From an uncultured Nitrospira sp. (GTDB lineage Bacteria > Nitrospirota > Nitrospiria > Nitrospirales > Nitrospiraceae), in NCBI GenBank assembly GCA_902500995.1, contig CABVSR010000016.1:1-64000 (forward strand): a DNA stretch of 64,000 nt, written 5' to 3'. Made by a program: the position numbers and the translations under genes. Below the pieces are notes generated by a model. It had not been told where the DNA came from and ran no database searches. It was given only the letters and a program-made list of their open reading frames with translations. Every line of letters begins with the position of its first letter. The first letter of the stretch is position 1. Shown one piece after another: positions 4,049 through 54,454 of the stretch.

Positions 4049-4711
4049 ATGAAGAAAACACGAACCGGCAGGGTCCGATCGGCCCTCTGCGCGATCATCA
4101 GCTTGATCCTACTGTCATTGCTGACGGGAGAGTGGTCCGGTGCCCGATCGGCGATGGCGCGGGACGGCGAATCGCCCACGCTCATCCCACAGCCGAACAG
4201 CAACGTGGAATTAACGATCGACCTCGCGGGCTTCAGGATAGAACGGGATCGTCTCACAGCAGACGGGCGGCGCTATATCGGGGCTTCGCATCCCGCGACA
4301 GGCATCAATGTCGCTATTGCGATGGAGCAGGTGGGCGGATTGGCTTCAACCGGTGGATGCATCACCCACCTGCGGCAATTGAAGAAAGGACCAACGGTCA
4401 GCCGGGGGATTGACGTGGCTCTCTCGACCAGTCGCGACATGCCGACGCTCGAATACACGCTGCGCCGCTTCCAAGGTGTTCGCCTCGACCAAAAAAGCCT
4501 GTACGCCTGTATGGCTCACGCGGATGTCTATGCCCACATCCATGTGTCCAAACTGCAGTATACCGATGCCGATGCCTCGCTCTTTCAGCAGCTTCTGAGC
4601 ACGTTTCGCTTGGAGAAGGGATCGTCGGCGAGGCTGAGAGCTCAACGACCTGAGACCGGCGCCCAGCTCCTTTTCGTGGAGACCACGCTTGCCGCTAGCG
4701 GGGCGCCGTGA
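4049..4711 (+). CDS. Exported protein of unknown function
   Basis: A 220-residue protein with a basic start (MKKTRTGRVRS) and hydrophobic stretch (ALCAIISLILLSLLTG), probably a signal peptide for the periplasm. The mature part has a few cysteines (GGCITHLRQL, SLYACMAHAD) but no catalytic motif I recognise. AGGGAGGAG is well placed before the ATG. Its 3' end overlaps the convergent gene at 4695 by 17 bp. I do not recognise the family. Confidence 0.65.
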   Translation: MKKTRTGRVRSALCAIISLILLSLLTGEWSGARSAMARDGESPTLIPQPNSNVELTIDLAGFRIERDRLTADGRRYIGASHPATGINVAIAMEQVGGLASTGGCITHLRQLKKGPTVSRGIDVALSTSRDMPTLEYTLRRFQGVRLDQKSLYACMAHADVYAHIHVSKLQYTDADASLFQQLLSTFRLEKGSSARLRAQRPETGAQLLFVETTLAASGAP

Positions 4712-5912
4712 GCGCATCCTGAGCCGTGTGACCGCTCAGGGATTTTTCCTGGATGTTGTGCTGGATCTCCAAGGCAATGACCCGCGCCAGTTGATCCGGT
4801 GACAGCGCGCCCATCGGCATTCCTTGGGTCTCCCGATAAAAGGGGTCATCGGGGGCAGCGGATCGGTGCACGTTGACCAGAATGGCGGCCGGTTGAATGC
4901 GCTGCTCCCGCTTTCCCACCACCACCGCCTTCTCTTCAGGCTGCACCCTGGTGCGGGTGGCCCAATCGCGCTGGTCGATTTTCACATAGGCGACATTCCA
5001 GATTTTTCCGTTCAGAAGACTGCGGACGGCCTTCGGCGTCTGCTCCAGATAGGTGGGCTCCCGGACGATCTTCTGCAAGGCTTCACGAATGCGGATGTCG
5101 TACAACTTCGTCGCCGAATCGGCCTGCGTGGGCGAGATCGGCGCGCGGCTGCCGACTTCATACCACGGTTGTCCCTCGAGGCTCTTCTGATCATCCACGG
5201 TTCGTAGATAGGTCTCGAAGAGTTGCTGCAGCAGCCGGGCACGCTCTTCCGCAGGCACACGCGCAATCTCCTCCTCCGTGAGGATCGGCGCGTTCTGGAG
5301 CGTTCGTTCCACGGTAACCGCCTTCGCCTTTGGCGCGGTGTCCGCCTTGCTCACCACCCACTGGAATTCCCTCGCCAGCGCCGGAAGCAACTTATCCGGC
5401 TGGTTGAGCTGCCCCTGCTCTCTAAGGGAGGACGCGCTGATCAGCAACGTGACACGACCCGGCTCCTTCGTGCGGGCCACCAGAAACGCAAAGCGTTTCC
5501 CTTCATCATTGACCACGACCGGTTCGATCACGACCTGCTTGAGCGCCTGTTTTGTGAGGCTTTCATCGAAACGCGGATAGTCGGCCCGGTGCTGCAGCAT
5601 GATGGTGAACGCGTCGATCACGGTCCGGGCAGCGGCATCGAGATCGGACGCCTCGATTCCGCCGCCGCCCGCGGCCGTGCCAGGGCTTAGAAACACCTGA
5701 AAGGGTGCGCCGGGAATCTCTCGCCCCTCCCCGCTCACAGCAGGCTCTGTGGTTTCGGCGTGGGGGTTGTGGCCTTGATGATTCGCCTGCAGCTCAGGCG
5801 CCAACAGGAATGAACCGGCGAGCAGAGCCGCGCCCAGAGTGCCGATTACCGGCCGTCGGAAGGTGATGACCGGACCCGCCTGCAAGCCACATTCAGTGCG
5901 CCGGTTCGGCAT
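4695..5912 (-). CDS. Exported protein of unknown function, coupled to galE
   Basis: A 405-residue protein from ATG 5912. The open frame runs much further upstream but only inside galE, so that extension is rejected. GAGGGGG lies 6 nt before ATG 5912 and only 1 nt before the alternative ATG 5918. The N-terminus has a signal peptide (PVIGTLGAALLAGSFLLAPELQA) followed by a His-rich linker (NHQGHNPHAETTE). The mature part is soluble and charged, with DLDAAARTVIDAFTIML and a long C-terminal helix region. It begins 11 nt after the galE stop, so the two are likely translated from one mRNA. No known domain is recognised. Confidence 0.68.
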   Translation of the reverse strand: MPNRRTECGLQAGPVITFRRPVIGTLGAALLAGSFLLAPELQANHQGHNPHAETTEPAVSGEGREIPGAPFQVFLSPGTAAGGGGIEASDLDAAARTVIDAFTIMLQHRADYPRFDESLTKQALKQVVIEPVVVNDEGKRFAFLVARTKEPGRVTLLISASSLREQGQLNQPDKLLPALAREFQWVVSKADTAPKAKAVTVERTLQNAPILTEEEIARVPAEERARLLQQLFETYLRTVDDQKSLEGQPWYEVGSRAPISPTQADSATKLYDIRIREALQKIVREPTYLEQTPKAVRSLLNGKIWNVAYVKIDQRDWATRTRVQPEEKAVVVGKREQRIQPAAILVNVHRSAAPDDPFYRETQGMPMGALSPDQLARVIALEIQHNIQEKSLSGHTAQDALTAPR

Positions 5913-6943: not shown

Positions 6944-7112
6944 GCGCGTTGCCTCCGCTGAATGAAATGAGCTGCCTGCTGCTGCCGGCCTACGATACAC
7001 CGCCTCGAGGGTCCGCACAATGGCAGATTGCCACGGCACACCCGGCATCAAATGGAATCCCACTAGCTGTGGCCCGTCGCACTCCGCTACACTTTGATCG
7101 CACAAGGACTCG

Positions 7113-7985
7113 ATGCCACACGAACGCGCCACCGACTATTACGCCATCCTCGAACTTTCTTCTGACGCCACGGAAGCCGACATCAGACGCGCCTGGCATG
7201 AACAGATGCAGGTCTGGCACCCCGATCGTTTCGTGCACTCGCCGGCGCTACACAAGAAAGCCGAAGCCCGCACGCAACTGATCAATCAGGCCTATCAAAC
7301 ACTCGGTGACCTCGCCGCCCGAGCCCGTTATGATCATGGGAGGCGCAATCCCGCCGCGCCGCCCGCTGCGCCGTCCTCTCCACCGCGCCCCTCTCCTGCG
7401 GCTCGCCCGCAACCAACCGCCCGCTCGCGACAGGAGTTGCGCGGACCACAAACGATGTTGAACGTCACCCGGTTCGGTCATCCAAAGATCATGGTCCCCG
7501 CCATCCATATGCTGGTCGATGTGCAGGAAACGCAGCCCTATGAATTCAAGGGACTCATCCGGATTGCGGGAACTCGCAAACAGGCCTTGCCCGCCGGCGA
7601 CTACGCCATCGCGGAAGCGCCCGACATATTTTGCGTCGAACGCCGGCGCGCGGAAGACTTCAATACCATTGTCTCGAATCCGGCCGACAATCGCCCGCGC
7701 TTTTTGCGCGAACTCGAACCGCTCCTCGCTGTCCCCCACCGTTTTCTGGTCATCGAGGGCGCCCTGCACGCCAACCGCGGCGGAGGACGGCTTGGCCAGT
7801 ATCACCGCAATGGCTTGATCGACTTTCTCGATTCCCTGACGGCGCGATTCGGAATTCAGATCGTTCAGGCAGAGACTCGCGAAGAAGCCGAGGAACGGAT
7901 TGCGAATCTCGCCGCCATCCATTACGCCTACCATCTCGCGGAACAACAAGGACTGGGCCGGTGCCTGACGGAAAATGATGCCTGA
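7113..7985 (+). CDS. J-domain / ERCC4-type nuclease fusion protein
   Basis: A 290-residue two-domain protein. Residues 7-75 are a J domain (YYAILELSSDATEADIRRAW, HPD at 36-38, then a QAYQTLGDLAARARYD helix), the part of DnaJ that stimulates Hsp70 ATPase. A Pro/Ala-rich linker spans about 80-110. Residues 130-275 match the ERCC4 (XPF/Mus81) nuclease core: VDVQETQPYEF corresponds to the family VDxRE strand (D136, E139), AGDYAI gives GD at 162-163, and VERRRAEDF gives the ERKxxxD signature with Arg for Lys (E176, R177, R178, D182). FLVIEGAL follows as in the family. So all acidic metal ligands are present. An AAA+ ATPase gene follows 93 bp downstream on the same strand. The domain calls are inferred from motifs; the fusion itself is directly visible. 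Confidence 0.75.
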   Translation: MPHERATDYYAILELSSDATEADIRRAWHEQMQVWHPDRFVHSPALHKKAEARTQLINQAYQTLGDLAARARYDHGRRNPAAPPAAPSSPPRPSPAARPQPTARSRQELRGPQTMLNVTRFGHPKIMVPAIHMLVDVQETQPYEFKGLIRIAGTRKQALPAGDYAIAEAPDIFCVERRRAEDFNTIVSNPADNRPRFLRELEPLLAVPHRFLVIEGALHANRGGGRLGQYHRNGLIDFLDSLTARFGIQIVQAETREEAEERIANLAAIHYAYHLAEQQGLGRCLTENDA

Positions 7986-8078: not shown

Positions 8079-9641
8079 ATGGCGCTCTCCACGACCGTGC
8101 ACGATCTCCGCACGTTGATCCGTTCCTGCCACCCCTTCATCGTGATCGAGACCGTCGAAGAAGACCGGGTGATGACCCTGCTGCAATCCGTCGCCGCCCA
8201 GGAACGGATGCCGCTGTTCGAATGGTCGTTGACGAGAGGCCTCACCAGGCCGGAAGAAGGACAGAGCCTCAGCAAGCTGACGGCCACGCCCCTGGCCCTG
8301 CTCCAACATCTCCACGGCTTGACGGTCGAAGGCATCTTTTGGCTCAAGGATCTCGCGCCCCACTTGCAGGATGCCGCCGCCGCACGCCAACTGCGTGAGG
8401 TCTGCCATCAGTTCGGCCGCTCGCGGGCAACCTGTCTCGTGACCGGTCATCCCATCTCCCTGCCGCCCGACCTCGACAAGATCGCGGTGCGGCTCGACCT
8501 GCGCCTGCCCGACCGGCAGGAGTTACAGACGATGCTGCAGAGCGTCCTGCAATCCTTGCAGAAAAGACCATCGGCACGTCGCCCGACCTCCACCACGGTG
8601 GTGCAAAGCCTGCTCAACTCCATGACCGCCCCGAAGGCCATGACTGCCGGTCCCTCCGAGCAGGAATACGACGCCATCCTTCGCGCCCTGCGGGGACTGA
8701 CGTTGCATCAGGCGCGGCAGATGATTACCCACTGTGTCGTGGAGGACGGGGTGCTCTCCGGCGACGACGTGCAGACGATTCTCACCCGCAAGGTCCAGGC
8801 GATGAAGGACGGCGGCCTCCTGGAATACTATCCGCTGGAGGACAACCGGTTCGAACTCGGCGGATTCGGCAATCTGAAAACCTGGCTGGAGCGGGCGAAG
8901 GTGGGATTCACGGACGAAGCCAAGGCGCTCAACCTGACCGCGCCGCGCGGCATCATGCTGGTGGGGGTGCCGGGCTGCGGGAAATCGCTCGCGGCGAAGG
9001 CGATTGCGCGCGAATGGCAATTGCCGCTGCTCAAGCTCGACGCCGGCCGCTTATTCGACAAGTTCATCGGCGAGTCCGAAAAGAACTTTCGCAAGGCCAT
9101 CGAGACAGCGGAGTCCCTGTCTCCGATCGTGCTCTGGATCGATGAAATTGAAAAGGCCATGGCCGCCGGCGGCGGCAGCGGCGAAGCGGATGCGGGGTTG
9201 AGCCGCCGGTTGTTCGGCGCATTTCTGACGTGGCTGCAGGAAAAGAAACAGGACGTCTTCGTCGTGGCGACGGCGAACAATCTCTCCGTTCTGCCGCCGG
9301 AACTGTTGCGCAAAGGCCGTTTCGACGAAATTTTCTTCGTGGACCTGCCGGACGGGAACGAACGGACCGCGATCTGGACCATTCATCTCGGCCTTCGCAA
9401 ACAAGATCCTTCGCAATTCGACCTGCGGAAGATCGTGGACGCCAGCAAAGGATTCAGCGGCTCGGAAATCGAGCAGGCCGTGGTCGCCGGCCTGTACCGC
9501 GCGCTGCATCACAAGCAGCCGCTGACGACCGACCTGCTCATCGAAGAGCTGTCCAACACTGTGCCGCTCTCGGTCACGCGGAGCGAAGACATCTCCCAGC
9601 TGCGAACCATGGCCGAAGGCCGGTTCGTCAACGTGCGATGA
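8079..9641 (+). CDS. AAA+ ATPase, Ycf46-like
   Basis: A 520-residue protein. The N-terminal half (HDLRTLIRSCHPFIVIETVEE onward) is the non-ATPase domain of Ycf46-type proteins. The C-terminal half is an AAA module of the FtsH/CDC48 branch, with Walker A GVPGCGKS at about 296-303, Walker B VLWIDEIEKAM near 350, sensor-1 VATANN, an arginine finger region PPELLRKGRFDE, and FSGSEIEQAV in the lid. No membrane segment or zinc protease motif HExxH is present, so it is not FtsH itself. In cyanobacteria Ycf46 affects CO2/photosynthesis regulation; the role in other bacteria is unclear. Placement after the J-ERCC4 gene suggests a shared task. Confidence 0.85.
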   Translation: MALSTTVHDLRTLIRSCHPFIVIETVEEDRVMTLLQSVAAQERMPLFEWSLTRGLTRPEEGQSLSKLTATPLALLQHLHGLTVEGIFWLKDLAPHLQDAAAARQLREVCHQFGRSRATCLVTGHPISLPPDLDKIAVRLDLRLPDRQELQTMLQSVLQSLQKRPSARRPTSTTVVQSLLNSMTAPKAMTAGPSEQEYDAILRALRGLTLHQARQMITHCVVEDGVLSGDDVQTILTRKVQAMKDGGLLEYYPLEDNRFELGGFGNLKTWLERAKVGFTDEAKALNLTAPRGIMLVGVPGCGKSLAAKAIAREWQLPLLKLDAGRLFDKFIGESEKNFRKAIETAESLSPIVLWIDEIEKAMAAGGGSGEADAGLSRRLFGAFLTWLQEKKQDVFVVATANNLSVLPPELLRKGRFDEIFFVDLPDGNERTAIWTIHLGLRKQDPSQFDLRKIVDASKGFSGSEIEQAVVAGLYRALHHKQPLTTDLLIEELSNTVPLSVTRSEDISQLRTMAEGRFVNVR

Positions 9642-9871: not shown

Positions 9872-11638
9872 ATGATCACACATACATTCTGGAAACCTGT
9901 GCTCCGCAATCGACGCAGCCACCGCCATGGTCGCTGGTTGATCGGGCCGAGCATGGTTCTGTTCATCCTCGTCGGCGCAGCAGGCTCCGGCGCTTCGGCC
10001 GGCGACCTGCCGCTCCGTTCGGAAGGCCAGATCGCCCAGCATGCCAAGGCCGCCTGGGAACAGGGCACGATCGATCTGGCGCTCGGTATTTTGGAGCAGG
10101 GCCTCCACGATCATCCTGACGCCCTCGCGCTCCACCAGCTTCGCGGGGACATGTTGGCTACTTCACGCCGCACGGAAGCCGCTCTGGAATCGTACGACAC
10201 CGTGCTCGCGCATATTCCCGCCGCGCTGGATGTGCGATGGGCCAGATGGAGCGTGCTGGTGCGGTCGGGGCAAGTCGAGGAAGCGGTGGCCGAACTTCAC
10301 CGCATCGCCGCGCTCGACCCGCAGAACCCGCTGATCCATTTGCGCCTGGCGCGAGAACTGCGGAAGCTCGACCGCCTGGAGGAATCATTCGAGGCCTACA
10401 AGAAGGCCGTCGCGCTCGGACCGGACATGCTCAATTGGCGATTGGCATTGGCTAGGGCCCGCTTTGATATTCTGGATTACGAAGGTGCGGAGCGCGACGT
10501 GCACTTCGTTCTGGATCGAGTCCCGACCGGCTCGCCGCTGCATTTGTCGGCGAGGAATCTGCTCACGGTGTTTTTCGGCTCGACCGAGCGGGGCCGCCGC
10601 TATGCGCCGGTTATGACGCCGGATGTGAGCTCGAAACAACTGCGCGACTGGTCGATGATACGCGCAGAAGGATATCGGCTGTTCGAGGCGGGACGGTTCC
10701 GGGAAGCCGAACCGGTGTATCGGGAACTCCTGCGCCTCAACCCGATGGATCCGCTGGCCGGGCGGCACCTCAGTCTCATCCTCATGGGGCTGGGCCGTTG
10801 CAAAGACGCGCTCGCGGTTTCTCAGGCGGGATCCGATTTCGATCCGACGGATGAGGAACATACGACGACGGCGTTTCGGATGGGCCAATGCATGGTCGAA
10901 CTGGAACGCTGGGAAGACGCCTACATGCAATTCAAAACGCTGTACGATGCGACCGTGGAATTTGAAAAATCCACGAGGGAAGTCCAGCTCCCGTCCGGAA
11001 CGCGGGTGTTGAATAAGGCCGCCCTGACGCAGTGGATGGACAAGGTGCGTCCGCACGTGCCGGAGTTCGCGCAGCAGGTCGAAGAGGAGGCGGCAGCCAA
11101 CGCGGCTCAGGCCAAAGCGGCAGCGCCGACCATTCCTCCGGAGGCTGAACTCGCGGCGAAGGCCCTCGAAGCCTTGAAGCCCCAAAACACGCTGGATACG
11201 GCCGCTTCCCTCGTCGGCCGGGACGCGGACTTCGCCTGGTTCCGCTTCGTCATTCCCGCGAAAAAAGTCATGCGCGACGATTCGCCGACCGGCGCGCACG
11301 ACTTCATTCCGTTGGATCCGGGGATCAGCTTCCCCGGCAGTCAGCAGGATATCTATCTGGTCTTCAGCCTGGTCACGGCTTCGTATGACGAAGTGCCGCT
11401 GGCCGCGCGCTGTTTCAGGGAGACCGCCGAACTTGCCGGCGCGCAAGCCGCGGTGGCGCAGGATCGGCTCATCCTGTCCACGAACGACCAGTCCGGCTAT
11501 TTCGTGTTGCCTCGCCCGGTCGCAGGCTGGACGGCCGGCCTGTACCGGTGCGGGCTGTTTGCGGGGGAAGAAACCTCGGCCTATACGCAGGTCGATGAGG
11601 TGCGCTTCCGCATCACCGAGCAGCCAAGGCCCTCGTAG
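9872..11638 (+). CDS. Exported TPR-repeat protein
   Basis: A 588-residue protein. A hydrophobic segment WLIGPSMVLFILVGAAGSGASA near residues 28-50 is a signal peptide or N-terminal anchor. Residues about 60-340 are tetratricopeptide repeats (AKAAWEQGTIDLALGILEQGL, ALESYDTVLAHIPAALDVRW, EAEPVYRELLRLNPMDPLAG and others). An Ala-rich helical linker (EEEAAANAAQAKAAAPTIPP) follows. The C-terminal part (about 450-588) looks like a beta-rich domain ending FRITEQPRPS that may bind a ligand or partner. TPR proteins of this type usually scaffold envelope complexes. No operon partner is evident, and the 230 bp upstream hold no recognised feature. Confidence 0.75.
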   Translation: MITHTFWKPVLRNRRSHRHGRWLIGPSMVLFILVGAAGSGASAGDLPLRSEGQIAQHAKAAWEQGTIDLALGILEQGLHDHPDALALHQLRGDMLATSRRTEAALESYDTVLAHIPAALDVRWARWSVLVRSGQVEEAVAELHRIAALDPQNPLIHLRLARELRKLDRLEESFEAYKKAVALGPDMLNWRLALARARFDILDYEGAERDVHFVLDRVPTGSPLHLSARNLLTVFFGSTERGRRYAPVMTPDVSSKQLRDWSMIRAEGYRLFEAGRFREAEPVYRELLRLNPMDPLAGRHLSLILMGLGRCKDALAVSQAGSDFDPTDEEHTTTAFRMGQCMVELERWEDAYMQFKTLYDATVEFEKSTREVQLPSGTRVLNKAALTQWMDKVRPHVPEFAQQVEEEAAANAAQAKAAAPTIPPEAELAAKALEALKPQNTLDTAASLVGRDADFAWFRFVIPAKKVMRDDSPTGAHDFIPLDPGISFPGSQQDIYLVFSLVTASYDEVPLAARCFRETAELAGAQAAVAQDRLILSTNDQSGYFVLPRPVAGWTAGLYRCGLFAGEETSAYTQVDEVRFRITEQPRPS

Positions 11639-51050: not shown

Positions 51051-51601
51051 TTCGAAAGGCCCAAATTGCGACTGAGTGCGATTTATTGCGCTAGGCCATG
51101 AAATAAAGGGGAGGTGGCCAGAAACGCTCGGGCTTGATTACGACCATTTAGGACCAAATTTAACCTGAAACCGTGACCAAAACCGTGACAAAGAAACTAC
51201 TTAGAAGGTGAGGAGTATTTCTCATCTGTAGTACAGAATGGCTCCGCGAGCATCCGACCAGACCTTGAGATTTGAATTGCCGTAACTCGCCTATCTTCCA
51301 GGCAGACCTCCCCAAGTGAACCTTAAAGCCGAGGAGACATGCACGCAGTCTTCCTAAACACTGGGAGGATAGTATTTTGGGACCTCACAGGAACATCCAC
51401 CTCATAACCGCAATGAATAGGGGAGTAACAACCCAAGCATCTTTCATTTCGCATATCTTAGCGACATTCCAATATGAAGCTGCACGTTTAGAAGTCCCTT
51501 GCACGCATAGATTTCTGGCAGCCCTTCACGTATCCTGCGAGTCCATTTCCTAGACTGTGGGGCACTGCTCGCCATACCACCAGGTCTCATACAGGTGCAG
51601 G
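51051..51601. other. Non-coding stretch with a possible integrase remnant
   Basis: About 550 bp with no intact gene. At 51118-51211 a broken frame reads PETLGLDYDHLGPNLT, stop, and with a +1 shift ETVTKTVTKKLLRR, stop. The KTVTKTVT tail recalls the end of some tyrosine integrases, and the place next to the att-like repeat fits, but this is a weak reading. Confidence 0.3.
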
Positions 51602-54454
51602 ATGACCTCTCAAGACATAATCAGCCTAAAAGTATTCATCAGCTATAGCCATGATTCTGCAGAGCACATGAGTCGAGTTTTGAGGTTGGCCGACCGACTT
51701 CGTGCCGATGGGATCGACTGCGAACTTGATCAATATGAGGAATCCCCGCCAGAAGGGTGGCCAAAGTGGGCACGCAGGAAGGTGATGGAGTCCGAATATG
51801 TCCTAGTGGCATGCACGGAAACCTATTTACGCCGCTTCGATGGTAAAGAGGATCCGGGAAAAGGCCGCGGAGTCAAATGGGAGGGTGCGATTTTGACCCA
51901 GGAACTCTATGAGGCAGACGGACGGAACCAAAAATTCATCCCAGTAGTCTTTTCTGCGGACGAGCTCCAATATGTACCGATCGAACTCCGAGGAACAACG
52001 CACTATATTTTGTCCGTTGAAGCAGATTTCGACAAACTTTACCGACGTCTTACTAATCAACCACTAATCACAAGACCACAATTGGGGCAGCTGAAACGCC
52101 TACCTTCTCGCGAGCAGAAAGCGGAGTTTTCAGCTAGCCCTTGGAATGTGCCCTATCGACGTAACCCTCTATTCACTGGACGAGACACCGAGCTGAAGAC
52201 GTTGCGCCAGACTCTCGAGTCAAAGGGAGTCGCCGTATGCACGGGACTCGGCGGAATGGGCAAAACGCAGACAGCAGTCGAATATGCCTACCGCTATCGC
52301 GAGCAATATTCCGGAGTGTTATGGGCTCGCATGGAGACACGCGAGTCAGCGATCTCTGATTTTGTAGCTATTGCCTACGTACTGAATCTGCAAGAGAGGC
52401 ATTTTAAAGATCAGACGCGTATCGTTTCTGCAGTCAAGAATTGGATAGCAACCCATAGCCAAGTGCTTCTCATTCTCGATAATGCGGATGACTTGCAGAT
52501 AACGGAGGAATTCATCCCGACGGGCAAAATCGGTCACATCCTACTGACTAGCCGAGCATACGCAACGAACTCAATTGGTCCCGCAATCGAGATCGACCGC
52601 ATTGCGCAAGCGCAGGCAGTGCAGTTCTTGTTGCGTCGGGGAAGGATTACCGCTCTAGACGGACTAGTAGAGCATGCCAGCAAGAGTGATCAGGAAGCAG
52701 CAAATGAGATTACGGCCTTCTTGGATGGTCTACCACTAGCTCTCGACCAAGCAGGTGCCTATCTCGAAGAAACCGGCTGCGGGTTGGCCGGGTACCTCGT
52801 TTTGTACAAAGACAAAGCGATGGACCTTCTTAAATACCGGGGTGCAACATCTGATCATCCAGACCCAGTCGCCACCACTTGGCGACTTTCATTCGACAGA
52901 GTGAAAGCCGCACATCCAGCAGCGAGCGAACTCTTGTGTCTGTGCGCGTTTCTTCATCCTGAGGAGATTCCTGAAGAATTGATAACGAATGGTGCGACAG
53001 AACTCGGCCACATCCTCGGCGCTGCCGCAGCAAAGCCAGCTGAGTTGAATAAAGTCATTGCAGAATGCCTAAAATTTTCCCTCCTGCACCGCGATCCAAT
53101 CAGGCAGACGCTCGAAATTCATCGACTAGTCCAAGAAGTCGTCCGAACGGGAATTGACGAAACAACACAACGACAATGGGTGGAACGCTTGGTACGGGCC
53201 CTCAATATATCGTTTCCGAAAATTGAGCTGGCAACGTGGCCTCAATGCGAGCGACTTATCCCTCATATCGTTGCTGTGACGGCCTCTATTGCGCGATGGA
53301 AGCTCAATTCTCCTGGGGTTGACAGGTTATTTAACCAAGCGGGGCAGTACCTAGTCGAACGGGCACGCTACACGGAGGCAGAGCCGTTTTTACGGCGAAG
53401 CGTGGCAACTCGAGAGGAGCTGTTGGGAAAAGAGCACCCGGATGTGGCGATCGCCCTGAACAACCTTGCAATGGTTATTTACACCCAAGGTCGCTATGTG
53501 GAAGTGGAGCCCCTCCACCTTTTAAGCTTAAAGATTCGGGAAAATGCGTTTGGAGCCGAACATCCAGATGTTGCAGCGACCCTAAACAACCTCGCATCTC
53601 TTTACCGTTCCCAAGGCCGCTATCCAGAGGTGGAACCGCTCTACCGGCGCAGCTTGAAGATTCGGGAGGAGACGCTAGGGAAAGAGCATCCGGATGTAGC
53701 CCAAAGTCTTAACAATCTTGCGTCCTTTTATGACTCCCAAGGCCGTGGTGCGGAGGCAGAACCGCTACTCAAACGAAGCTTAATGATTTGGGAAAAGGTT
53801 TTTGGAAAAGAGCATCGAGAAGTGGCACGATGCCTAAACAATCTCGCGGAACTGTATCGTCGCCAGGGCCGCCATGCAGAGGCAGAATCCCTTTATCAGC
53901 GAAGCTTAGAGATTAGAGAGAATTTACTAGGCAAAGAGCATCCGGATGTGGCGATCGTCCTGAATAACCTCGCGTTGCTCTATCACGCCCAAGGGCACCA
54001 TGCAGAGGTGGAAAGCCTATATCAGCGAAGCTTGGCGATTCGAGAGAAGGCACTAGGCCCTGAGCATCCGGATGTGGCTTATAGCCTAAACAATCTCGCG
54101 GAATTGTATCGTGCGCGAAGACGCCATACAGAGGCAGAGCCGCTTTATCAGCGAAGCTTAGCGATTCGAGAAAAGATACTGGGAAGAGAGCATCCTGAAG
54201 TCGCACAAAGTCTGAACAATCTCGCGGAACTGTATCGTGTCCAGGGGCGCCATACAGAGGCAGAGCCGCTTTATCAGCAGAGTATAGCAATTGTAGACAA
54301 TTCCCAAGGCACGGAACATCTGGACGTGGCGAGAGTGCTTGAAAATTATGCCACATTACTTAAGCAGATGAATAGGATAGATGAGGGGAATCAATTAATG
54401 GAGCGCGCAAGCAGAATTAGAAACATGCGTCTCCGAGGCGAGTCCGACAAATAA
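51602..54454 (+). CDS. SEFIR-NB-ARC-TPR protein (STAND-type, likely antiphage)
   Basis: A 950-residue protein from ATG 51602 (the frame continues 15 codons upstream). Residues about 8-165 are a SEFIR domain, related to TIR: VFISYSHDSAEH, GIDCELDQYEESPPEGWPKW, ADYVLVACTE-like and GVKWEGAILTQELYE, FIPVVF. Then an NB-ARC/STAND NTPase has Walker A GLGGMGKT (215-222), Walker B LLILDNADD, GHILLTSR and a helical lid (LDGLPLALDQAGAYL). Residues 593-928 are eight 42-residue TPRs. In immune STAND proteins the repeats sense the trigger and the SEFIR/TIR domain acts as the effector, often an NADase. The role here is inferred. No other gene is needed or seen. Confidence 0.88.
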   Translation: MTSQDIISLKVFISYSHDSAEHMSRVLRLADRLRADGIDCELDQYEESPPEGWPKWARRKVMESEYVLVACTETYLRRFDGKEDPGKGRGVKWEGAILTQELYEADGRNQKFIPVVFSADELQYVPIELRGTTHYILSVEADFDKLYRRLTNQPLITRPQLGQLKRLPSREQKAEFSASPWNVPYRRNPLFTGRDTELKTLRQTLESKGVAVCTGLGGMGKTQTAVEYAYRYREQYSGVLWARMETRESAISDFVAIAYVLNLQERHFKDQTRIVSAVKNWIATHSQVLLILDNADDLQITEEFIPTGKIGHILLTSRAYATNSIGPAIEIDRIAQAQAVQFLLRRGRITALDGLVEHASKSDQEAANEITAFLDGLPLALDQAGAYLEETGCGLAGYLVLYKDKAMDLLKYRGATSDHPDPVATTWRLSFDRVKAAHPAASELLCLCAFLHPEEIPEELITNGATELGHILGAAAAKPAELNKVIAECLKFSLLHRDPIRQTLEIHRLVQEVVRTGIDETTQRQWVERLVRALNISFPKIELATWPQCERLIPHIVAVTASIARWKLNSPGVDRLFNQAGQYLVERARYTEAEPFLRRSVATREELLGKEHPDVAIALNNLAMVIYTQGRYVEVEPLHLLSLKIRENAFGAEHPDVAATLNNLASLYRSQGRYPEVEPLYRRSLKIREETLGKEHPDVAQSLNNLASFYDSQGRGAEAEPLLKRSLMIWEKVFGKEHREVARCLNNLAELYRRQGRHAEAESLYQRSLEIRENLLGKEHPDVAIVLNNLALLYHAQGHHAEVESLYQRSLAIREKALGPEHPDVAYSLNNLAELYRARRRHTEAEPLYQRSLAIREKILGREHPEVAQSLNNLAELYRVQGRHTEAEPLYQQSIAIVDNSQGTEHLDVARVLENYATLLKQMNRIDEGNQLMERASRIRNMRLRGESDK
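53378..54385 (+). repeat. Eight 126-bp tandem units encoding TPRs
   Basis: Eight units of exactly 42 codons, each with AEPLYQRSLAIREKxLGxEHPDVAxSLNNLAELY, span 1008 bp without an indel. DNA-level similarity between neighbours is high in units 5-7. Such arrays can gain or lose units by recombination. Confidence 0.93.

Follow-up and report, generated by a model that had tools for sequence, protein, structure and literature searches.

The window analysed here, a stretch of 64,000 nucleotides from an uncultured Nitrospira sp., contains a gene in which a J domain is followed by an ERCC4-type domain. The question raised by this gene is whether its product cuts DNA, serves Hsp70 as a co-chaperone, or does both.

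Gene and domain organisation

The features of the gene are listed in Table 1. The DnaJ family of Pfam (PF00226) matched residues 8-74 with an E value of 1.4e-14 (54.4 bits, cut-off 27.8), and the ERCC4 family (PF02732) matched residues 154-266 with an E value of 1.1e-9 (38.8 bits, cut-off 24). Both families were matched by all 29 members of the first family alignment (E ≤ 0.1). The joining of a J domain and an ERCC4 fold in one Nitrospira gene is confirmed, and it lies far beyond chance. Pfam found neither the zinc finger nor the DnaJ C-terminal part of classes A and B in the window protein, which by its J domain with HPD and the absence of these parts falls in class C of the J proteins. Neither a helix-hairpin-helix (HhH) match nor any other DNA-binding domain was detected by Pfam; only 24 residues follow the ERCC4 match, and the protein is without (HhH)2. 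The ERCC4 domain is mildly acidic (pI 6.2).

Table 1. Coordinates in the window of the J-ERCC4 fusion gene and its parts; residue numbers are those of the encoded protein.
Feature	Position	Strand	Basis or remark
Shine-Dalgarno-like AAGGA	7104..7108	+	Direct sequence reading; 4 nt ahead of ATG 7113
J-ERCC4 fusion gene, 290 aa	7113..7985	+	ORF with ATG start (window sequence), Pfam; matches in 80/147 Nitrospiraceae genomes
J domain, residues 8-74, HPD 36-38, helix II R25-R-A-W28-H29-E30	7134..7334	+	Pfam PF00226 and conservation
Pro/Ala/Arg-rich basic linker, residues 76-117	7338..7463	+	pI 12
ERCC4-fold domain and conserved C-terminal helix, residues 118-290	7464..7982	+	Pfam PF02732, AlphaFold2, Foldseek
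Degenerate active-site stretch G162-D163 ... E176-R177-R178-X3-D182	7596..7658	+	Lost in 27/67 relatives
Conserved C-terminal helix, residues 256-278	7878..7946	+	Helix in model; conserved in intact and lost groups

The linker evolves rapidly up to about residue 109, with the highest dN/dS among the regions tested, and R110-G-P112 near its end is invariant in the family alignment. In the C-terminal helix the conserved residues are R256, A259, E260, E261, R262, N265, H270, Y271, Y273 and E277, and this helix is proposed as a dimer or partner surface.

The full-length AlphaFold model was poor at residues 81-170 (mean pLDDT 58.8), and a model of the ERCC4 part was therefore used instead. This AlphaFold2 model of residues 118-290, based on an alignment of 59 sequences, had a mean pLDDT of 85.2 and a pTM of 0.81. 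A Foldseek comparison with the PDB returned 26 matches at E ≤ 0.001, every one of them from the XPF family (Hef, Aeropyrum pernix XPF, Mus81-Eme1, FANCM-FAAP24 and XPF-ERCC1), and the best were Hef (2.3e-8), A. pernix XPF (2.7e-7), Mus81 (1.8e-5) and FANCM (3.5e-5). The profile search of the PDB by sequence only was weak (Hef, E 0.17), though the whole domain was aligned in register. Profile comparison with the CRISPR-associated ERCC4 family of other Nitrospirota gave an hhalign probability of 93.6% and an E value of 2e-7. An earlier note, made from the window sequence, had described a J domain with HPD at residues 36-38 fused to an ERCC4-type nuclease with the signature positions D136, E139, D163, E176, R177, R178 and D182; the J domain and the ERCC4 fold are upheld by these searches, and all the positions listed are present.

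Distribution and genomic neighbourhood

The fusion was matched in 80 of the 147 Nitrospiraceae genomes, a few of the matches being partial or limited to the J domain, and it is a single-copy chromosomal gene of this family. Every Nitrospiraceae genome with an ERCC4 match had a single one, located at the fusion gene wherever it is listed by both searches; a second ERCC4 protein was not found in this family. The survey of Nitrospirota that the earlier note had suggested did not find the fusion elsewhere in the phylum, where the few other ERCC4 matches were J-less proteins or weak hits. Scanning approximately 85,000 species genomes with peptide patterns from the ERCC4 part yielded 53 loci, 52 of which were titled Nitrospira, Nitrospiraceae or Nitrospirae/Nitrospirota, including N. 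defluvii and N. moscoviensis. The remaining locus was titled Nitrosospira (isolate NOB2), probably a matter of labelling. This pattern scan reaches only close relatives, so that independent J-ERCC4 fusions may exist elsewhere. No papers on J-ERCC4 fusions were found in the open literature searched.

Two observations were made among the matches. In one genome (G042:C11:8898-9918) the fusion is broken up into two frames that overlap, covering query residues 1-194 and 139-289, which is likely a frameshift or an assembly error. The genus g10 (e.g. G103:C112, G037:C78, G074:C235) holds a second family, with frames of mostly 420-510 aa, in which the J domain shares 39-48% identity with the fusion's and is the only part matched.

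In the genus Nitrospira, the fusion is mostly located between a divergent galE-like gene and the gene of an AAA ATPase, which in the window occupies positions 8079-9641 and starts 93 bp downstream of the fusion. In the other genera tex frequently takes the divergent position, and the fusion is frequently followed by a gene for a SpoU-type methylase in convergent orientation. An operon link with the AAA ATPase was considered and rejected, as the ATPase is present in 84 of 144 genomes, many of them without the fusion, and is located elsewhere in most other genera. A same-strand TPR gene (window 9872-11638) lies downstream of the fusion in 33 of 54 loci, but 1-7 kb away with intervening genes, and no functional link is claimed. 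A further conserved neighbour, at window positions 4698-5912 on the minus strand, encodes 405 aa without a Pfam match at E 0.001.

The active-site motif and its loss

The motif of the window protein is GDXnERRX3D, compared with the canonical GDXnERKX3D. The strict canonical form was found in none of the 67 homologues, the window protein having the ERR form. The window copy retains both metal-ligand positions, D163 and E176. The 67 distinct proteins were grouped as intact when D163, E176 and R177 were all kept, and as lost when at least one of them was gone. By this definition 40 proteins were intact and 27 were lost, and E176 was always among the lost residues. In a lost clade of 18 proteins, E176 is replaced by K (once T) and D163 by G, S or N; E176 is replaced by L in a clade of 7 and by V in a pair. 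Among the intact proteins, 33 have ERR and 7 have ERK, and position 182 is E rather than D in 35 of these 40; ERRX3E is the dominant form. The residue preceding E139 is variable, being Q in the window and R, H, K, C, G or N elsewhere.

In the full-length tree, which takes in the active-site columns, the loss of the active site needs three changes, and these are forced by well-supported branches. A tree of the ERCC4 part with the active-site columns omitted, rooted with CRISPR-associated ERCC4 proteins as the outgroup, again needed three changes, with weaker support, its starred branches forcing only one. The full-length tree and the replacements of E176, which differ by clade (K, L and V), indicate that the cutting residues were lost separately about three times among the relatives.

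Two characterised proteins are relevant to the motif. The first two motif acids bind Mg in A. pernix XPF, and vertebrate FANCM, with the motif CDXnERRX3E, has no nuclease activity, which its authors put down in part to the two differences in the motif and in part to a non-DNA-binding environment around it (PMC3905867).

Selection on intact and lost proteins

For the ERCC4 part, the median dN/dS of the largest lost clade (0.093) was close to that of the intact genus clade (0.092), and for the J part both clades had 0.090. The second, smaller lost clade had values of 0.19-0.21, with 0.19 for the ERCC4 part, and the second intact clade 0.04-0.05; all these values are rough, since dS was approximately 1, near saturation, in several comparisons. 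In the region 110-290, some 60 positions reach at least 95% conservation in the intact and in the lost group alike, nearly all of them outside the catalytic motif. These include D136, P142-Y143, R150-I-A-G153, E168, P170, E181, S188-N189, R194, E200, R210-F211, E215-G216, Y230, D237, D240, R245 and the helix R256-E277. This conservation outside the motif, together with the purifying selection in the lost clades, implies that the whole protein is retained for a role in which the nuclease centre is not required.

The branch to which the window belongs still retains this centre. Throughout the genus Nitrospira, D163, E176 and R177 do not vary and their codons differ only synonymously, suggesting that the active site has kept its importance there; D136 and E139 are likewise invariant.

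The J domain and Hsp70 docking

HPD is kept in nearly all members, and the core of helix III is near-invariant in the 67 rows of the alignment. In an alignment made by eye, residues R22, K26, R27, K48 and K51 of E. coli DnaJ correspond to R25, H29, E30, Q55 and N58 of the window protein. Only the R22 position stays basic, the other four being replaced, and E30 was found in 66 of the 67 rows. Three other J proteins retrieved from the window genome have basic residues at the 26/27 positions. The five basic residues place DnaJ on DnaK (PMC8215388). With H-E of helix II in place of K26-R27, action with Hsp70 is not assured; the conserved HPD makes recruitment of Hsp70 plausible, possibly with another partner or at another strength. 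Basic docking residues are a feature of the DnaK type and are not needed by every class C member.

Possible function and alternatives

The best reading of these data is that the protein acts like an XPF-family scaffold coupled to a co-chaperone. Stated in full, it is a class C J co-chaperone in which the ERCC4 fold serves mainly to bind or dimerise and to direct Hsp70, an account that we regard as roughly an even call. The ERCC4-fold domain would be the client-targeting part. As in ERCC1 or FAAP24, its conserved job would be a non-catalytic one, to dimerise and to bind a partner from DNA repair or another nucleoprotein, and Hsp70 would be delivered by the J domain to the bound partner for its loading, remodelling or release. 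The dimer, the nucleoprotein client and the delivery of Hsp70 we infer from the fold and the pattern of conservation. Since the cutting residues were lost approximately three times while the rest of the protein was kept, the shared job is probably not DNA cutting; having neither the strict motif nor (HhH)2, the protein should not be classed with the XPF/Mus81 nucleases. In the genus Nitrospira branch, the protein of the window included, a weak or residual nuclease activity may persist.

A stronger version of the latter, in which the clade of the window has an active structure-specific endonuclease regulated by Hsp70 and the other branches are secondary pseudoenzymes, is rather unlikely but has several points in its favour: the genus clade has no replacement of D136, E139, D163, E176 or R177 and has synonymous codon variation there, Hef is the closest solved structure, and A. 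pernix XPF binds Mg by the two acids that are retained here (PMC3905867). It is weakened by 27 of 67 proteins having lost the orthologous positions, the largest lost clade showing no relaxation, by ERR instead of ERK, mostly with X3E, by the missing (HhH)2 and by a RusA-like resolvase that is present anyway. The proposal of the earlier note, a nuclease for DNA structures loaded by Hsp70, stands as regards the fusion, the fold and D163/E176 in the window, but as an account of function it is weakened by orthologues that have lost the acids and are still under purifying selection, and by the absence of (HhH)2, the pI of 6.2 and a dominant ERRX3E that is also that of inactive FANCM (PMC3905867). 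Close relatives without the catalytic acids, named in the note as evidence against it, do exist, as 27 of the 67 distinct proteins and with three changes in the tree. Its suggestion of Hsp70 recruitment agrees with the conserved HPD and less well with the replacement of most of the DnaK-docking basic residues. The same replacements (H29, E30 and Q55 at K26, R27 and K48, with E30 in 66 of 67 rows), set against the basic 26/27 positions of the three other J proteins and the role of R22, K26, R27, K48 and K51 in positioning DnaJ on DnaK (PMC8215388), would fit a J domain that is a protein-binding relic not working with Hsp70, in a protein that is an ERCC4-type scaffold only. This is improbable: were Hsp70 irrelevant, HPD would be expected to disappear, yet it is near-invariant, as is the helix III core, and the dN/dS of the J part is approximately 0.09.

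RuvC was found in none of 144 Nitrospiraceae genomes at E 1e-5, yet it is present in most other Nitrospirota genera, and RuvB is kept in Nitrospiraceae, the same family to which the fusion is limited. Replacement of RuvC by the fusion as Holliday-junction resolvase is nevertheless very improbable and was rejected: RuvC is missing from all 144 genomes and the fusion is matched in 80 of 147, leaving 67 genomes without a match, and the catalytic residues are missing in 27 of 67 proteins. RecU was not found in the Nitrospiraceae search. Of 31 relatives, 28 carry a RusA-like gene, complete genomes lacking the fusion among them, and such a gene, conserved with or without the fusion, means that the fusion is not needed as a stand-in for RuvC; the RusA-like gene may itself replace RuvC in Nitrospiraceae. 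One conserved copy is located at G000:C6:128421-128762. The most improbable of the readings is a phage-derived or defence-island nuclease. The PHROG ERCC4 family matches weakly (4.3e-7), and ERCC4 proteins are present in archaeal tailed viruses and large DNA viruses, but no relative of the fusion was found in 50,697 phage records or in viral contigs, PADLOC gave no defence-family match, and the neighbours (galE, tex and the SpoU-type methylase gene) are stable housekeeping genes. Elsewhere in the window, positions 51557-54454 encode a 965-aa protein whose translation appears to begin with a SEFIR/TIR-like segment, followed by an NB-ARC-like ATPase in the middle and by TPR repeats, possibly a STAND-type defence or signalling protein.

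Pseudonucleases of the XPF family, ERCC1 and FAAP24 among them, are known chiefly from eukaryotes, as paralogues partnered by a second subunit. A wider claim can be made, doubtful as it is at present: that a bacterial Hsp70 system is aimed at nucleoprotein complexes by an XPF-family fold, in a protein whose orthologues switched from nuclease to pseudonuclease several times. If true, the intact branch would provide the first example of an XPF-type nuclease coupled to a chaperone, and a DNA-repair fold would be added to the targeting domains of Hsp70 co-chaperones. The orthologues of this one bacterial gene differ in the retention of the active site, so that the non-cutting role of the fold can be studied within a single family, among nitrite oxidisers and their kin.

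Comparison with known systems

The closest solved structures, archaeal Hef (1J22) and A. pernix XPF (2BGW), share with the fusion the ERCC4 fold and, as in XPF/Mus81/Hef generally, the order of the core motifs VDxxE, GD, ERR and IEG. The fusion differs from them in having an N-terminal J domain, in lacking the helicase part and (HhH)2, in having ERR for ERK and in the catalytic residues not being conserved across its family. A degenerate motif in an ERCC4 fold is shared with the non-catalytic ERCC1, Eme1, FAAP24 and FANCM, and CDXnERRX3E of FANCM resembles GDXnERRX3E of most intact fusion members (PMC3905867). Those proteins are, however, eukaryotic heterodimers with (HhH)2, whereas the fusion has a J domain and the search of Nitrospiraceae found no second ERCC4 protein. 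Like E. coli DjlA and HscB, which are class C J proteins, the fusion has only the J domain in common with DnaJ, and its helix II charge pattern differs from that of DnaJ. In class C proteins the partner domain is expected to choose the client, and CbpA is a DNA-binding J protein. The open literature searched gave no description of a class C J protein that carries an ERCC4 domain.

Other Nitrospirota have a CRISPR-associated ERCC4 protein (loci L113, L122 and L123) with a collinear ERCC4 domain containing IDxNERYPWRF, GDY and ERK. Unlike the fusion, it has no J domain, keeps GD and ERK and lies within cas operons. This protein of about 356 aa has no NCBIfam name and is a putative CRISPR-associated XPF-type nuclease. 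In these three loci and in L138 (G228:C27) and L139 (G222:C2), its gene adjoins cas4 or a cas4-like gene, and it comes after cas3 in the two loci with upstream sequence. In L138 it is followed by a CRISPR-like array of 18 repeats spaced 65-67 nt.
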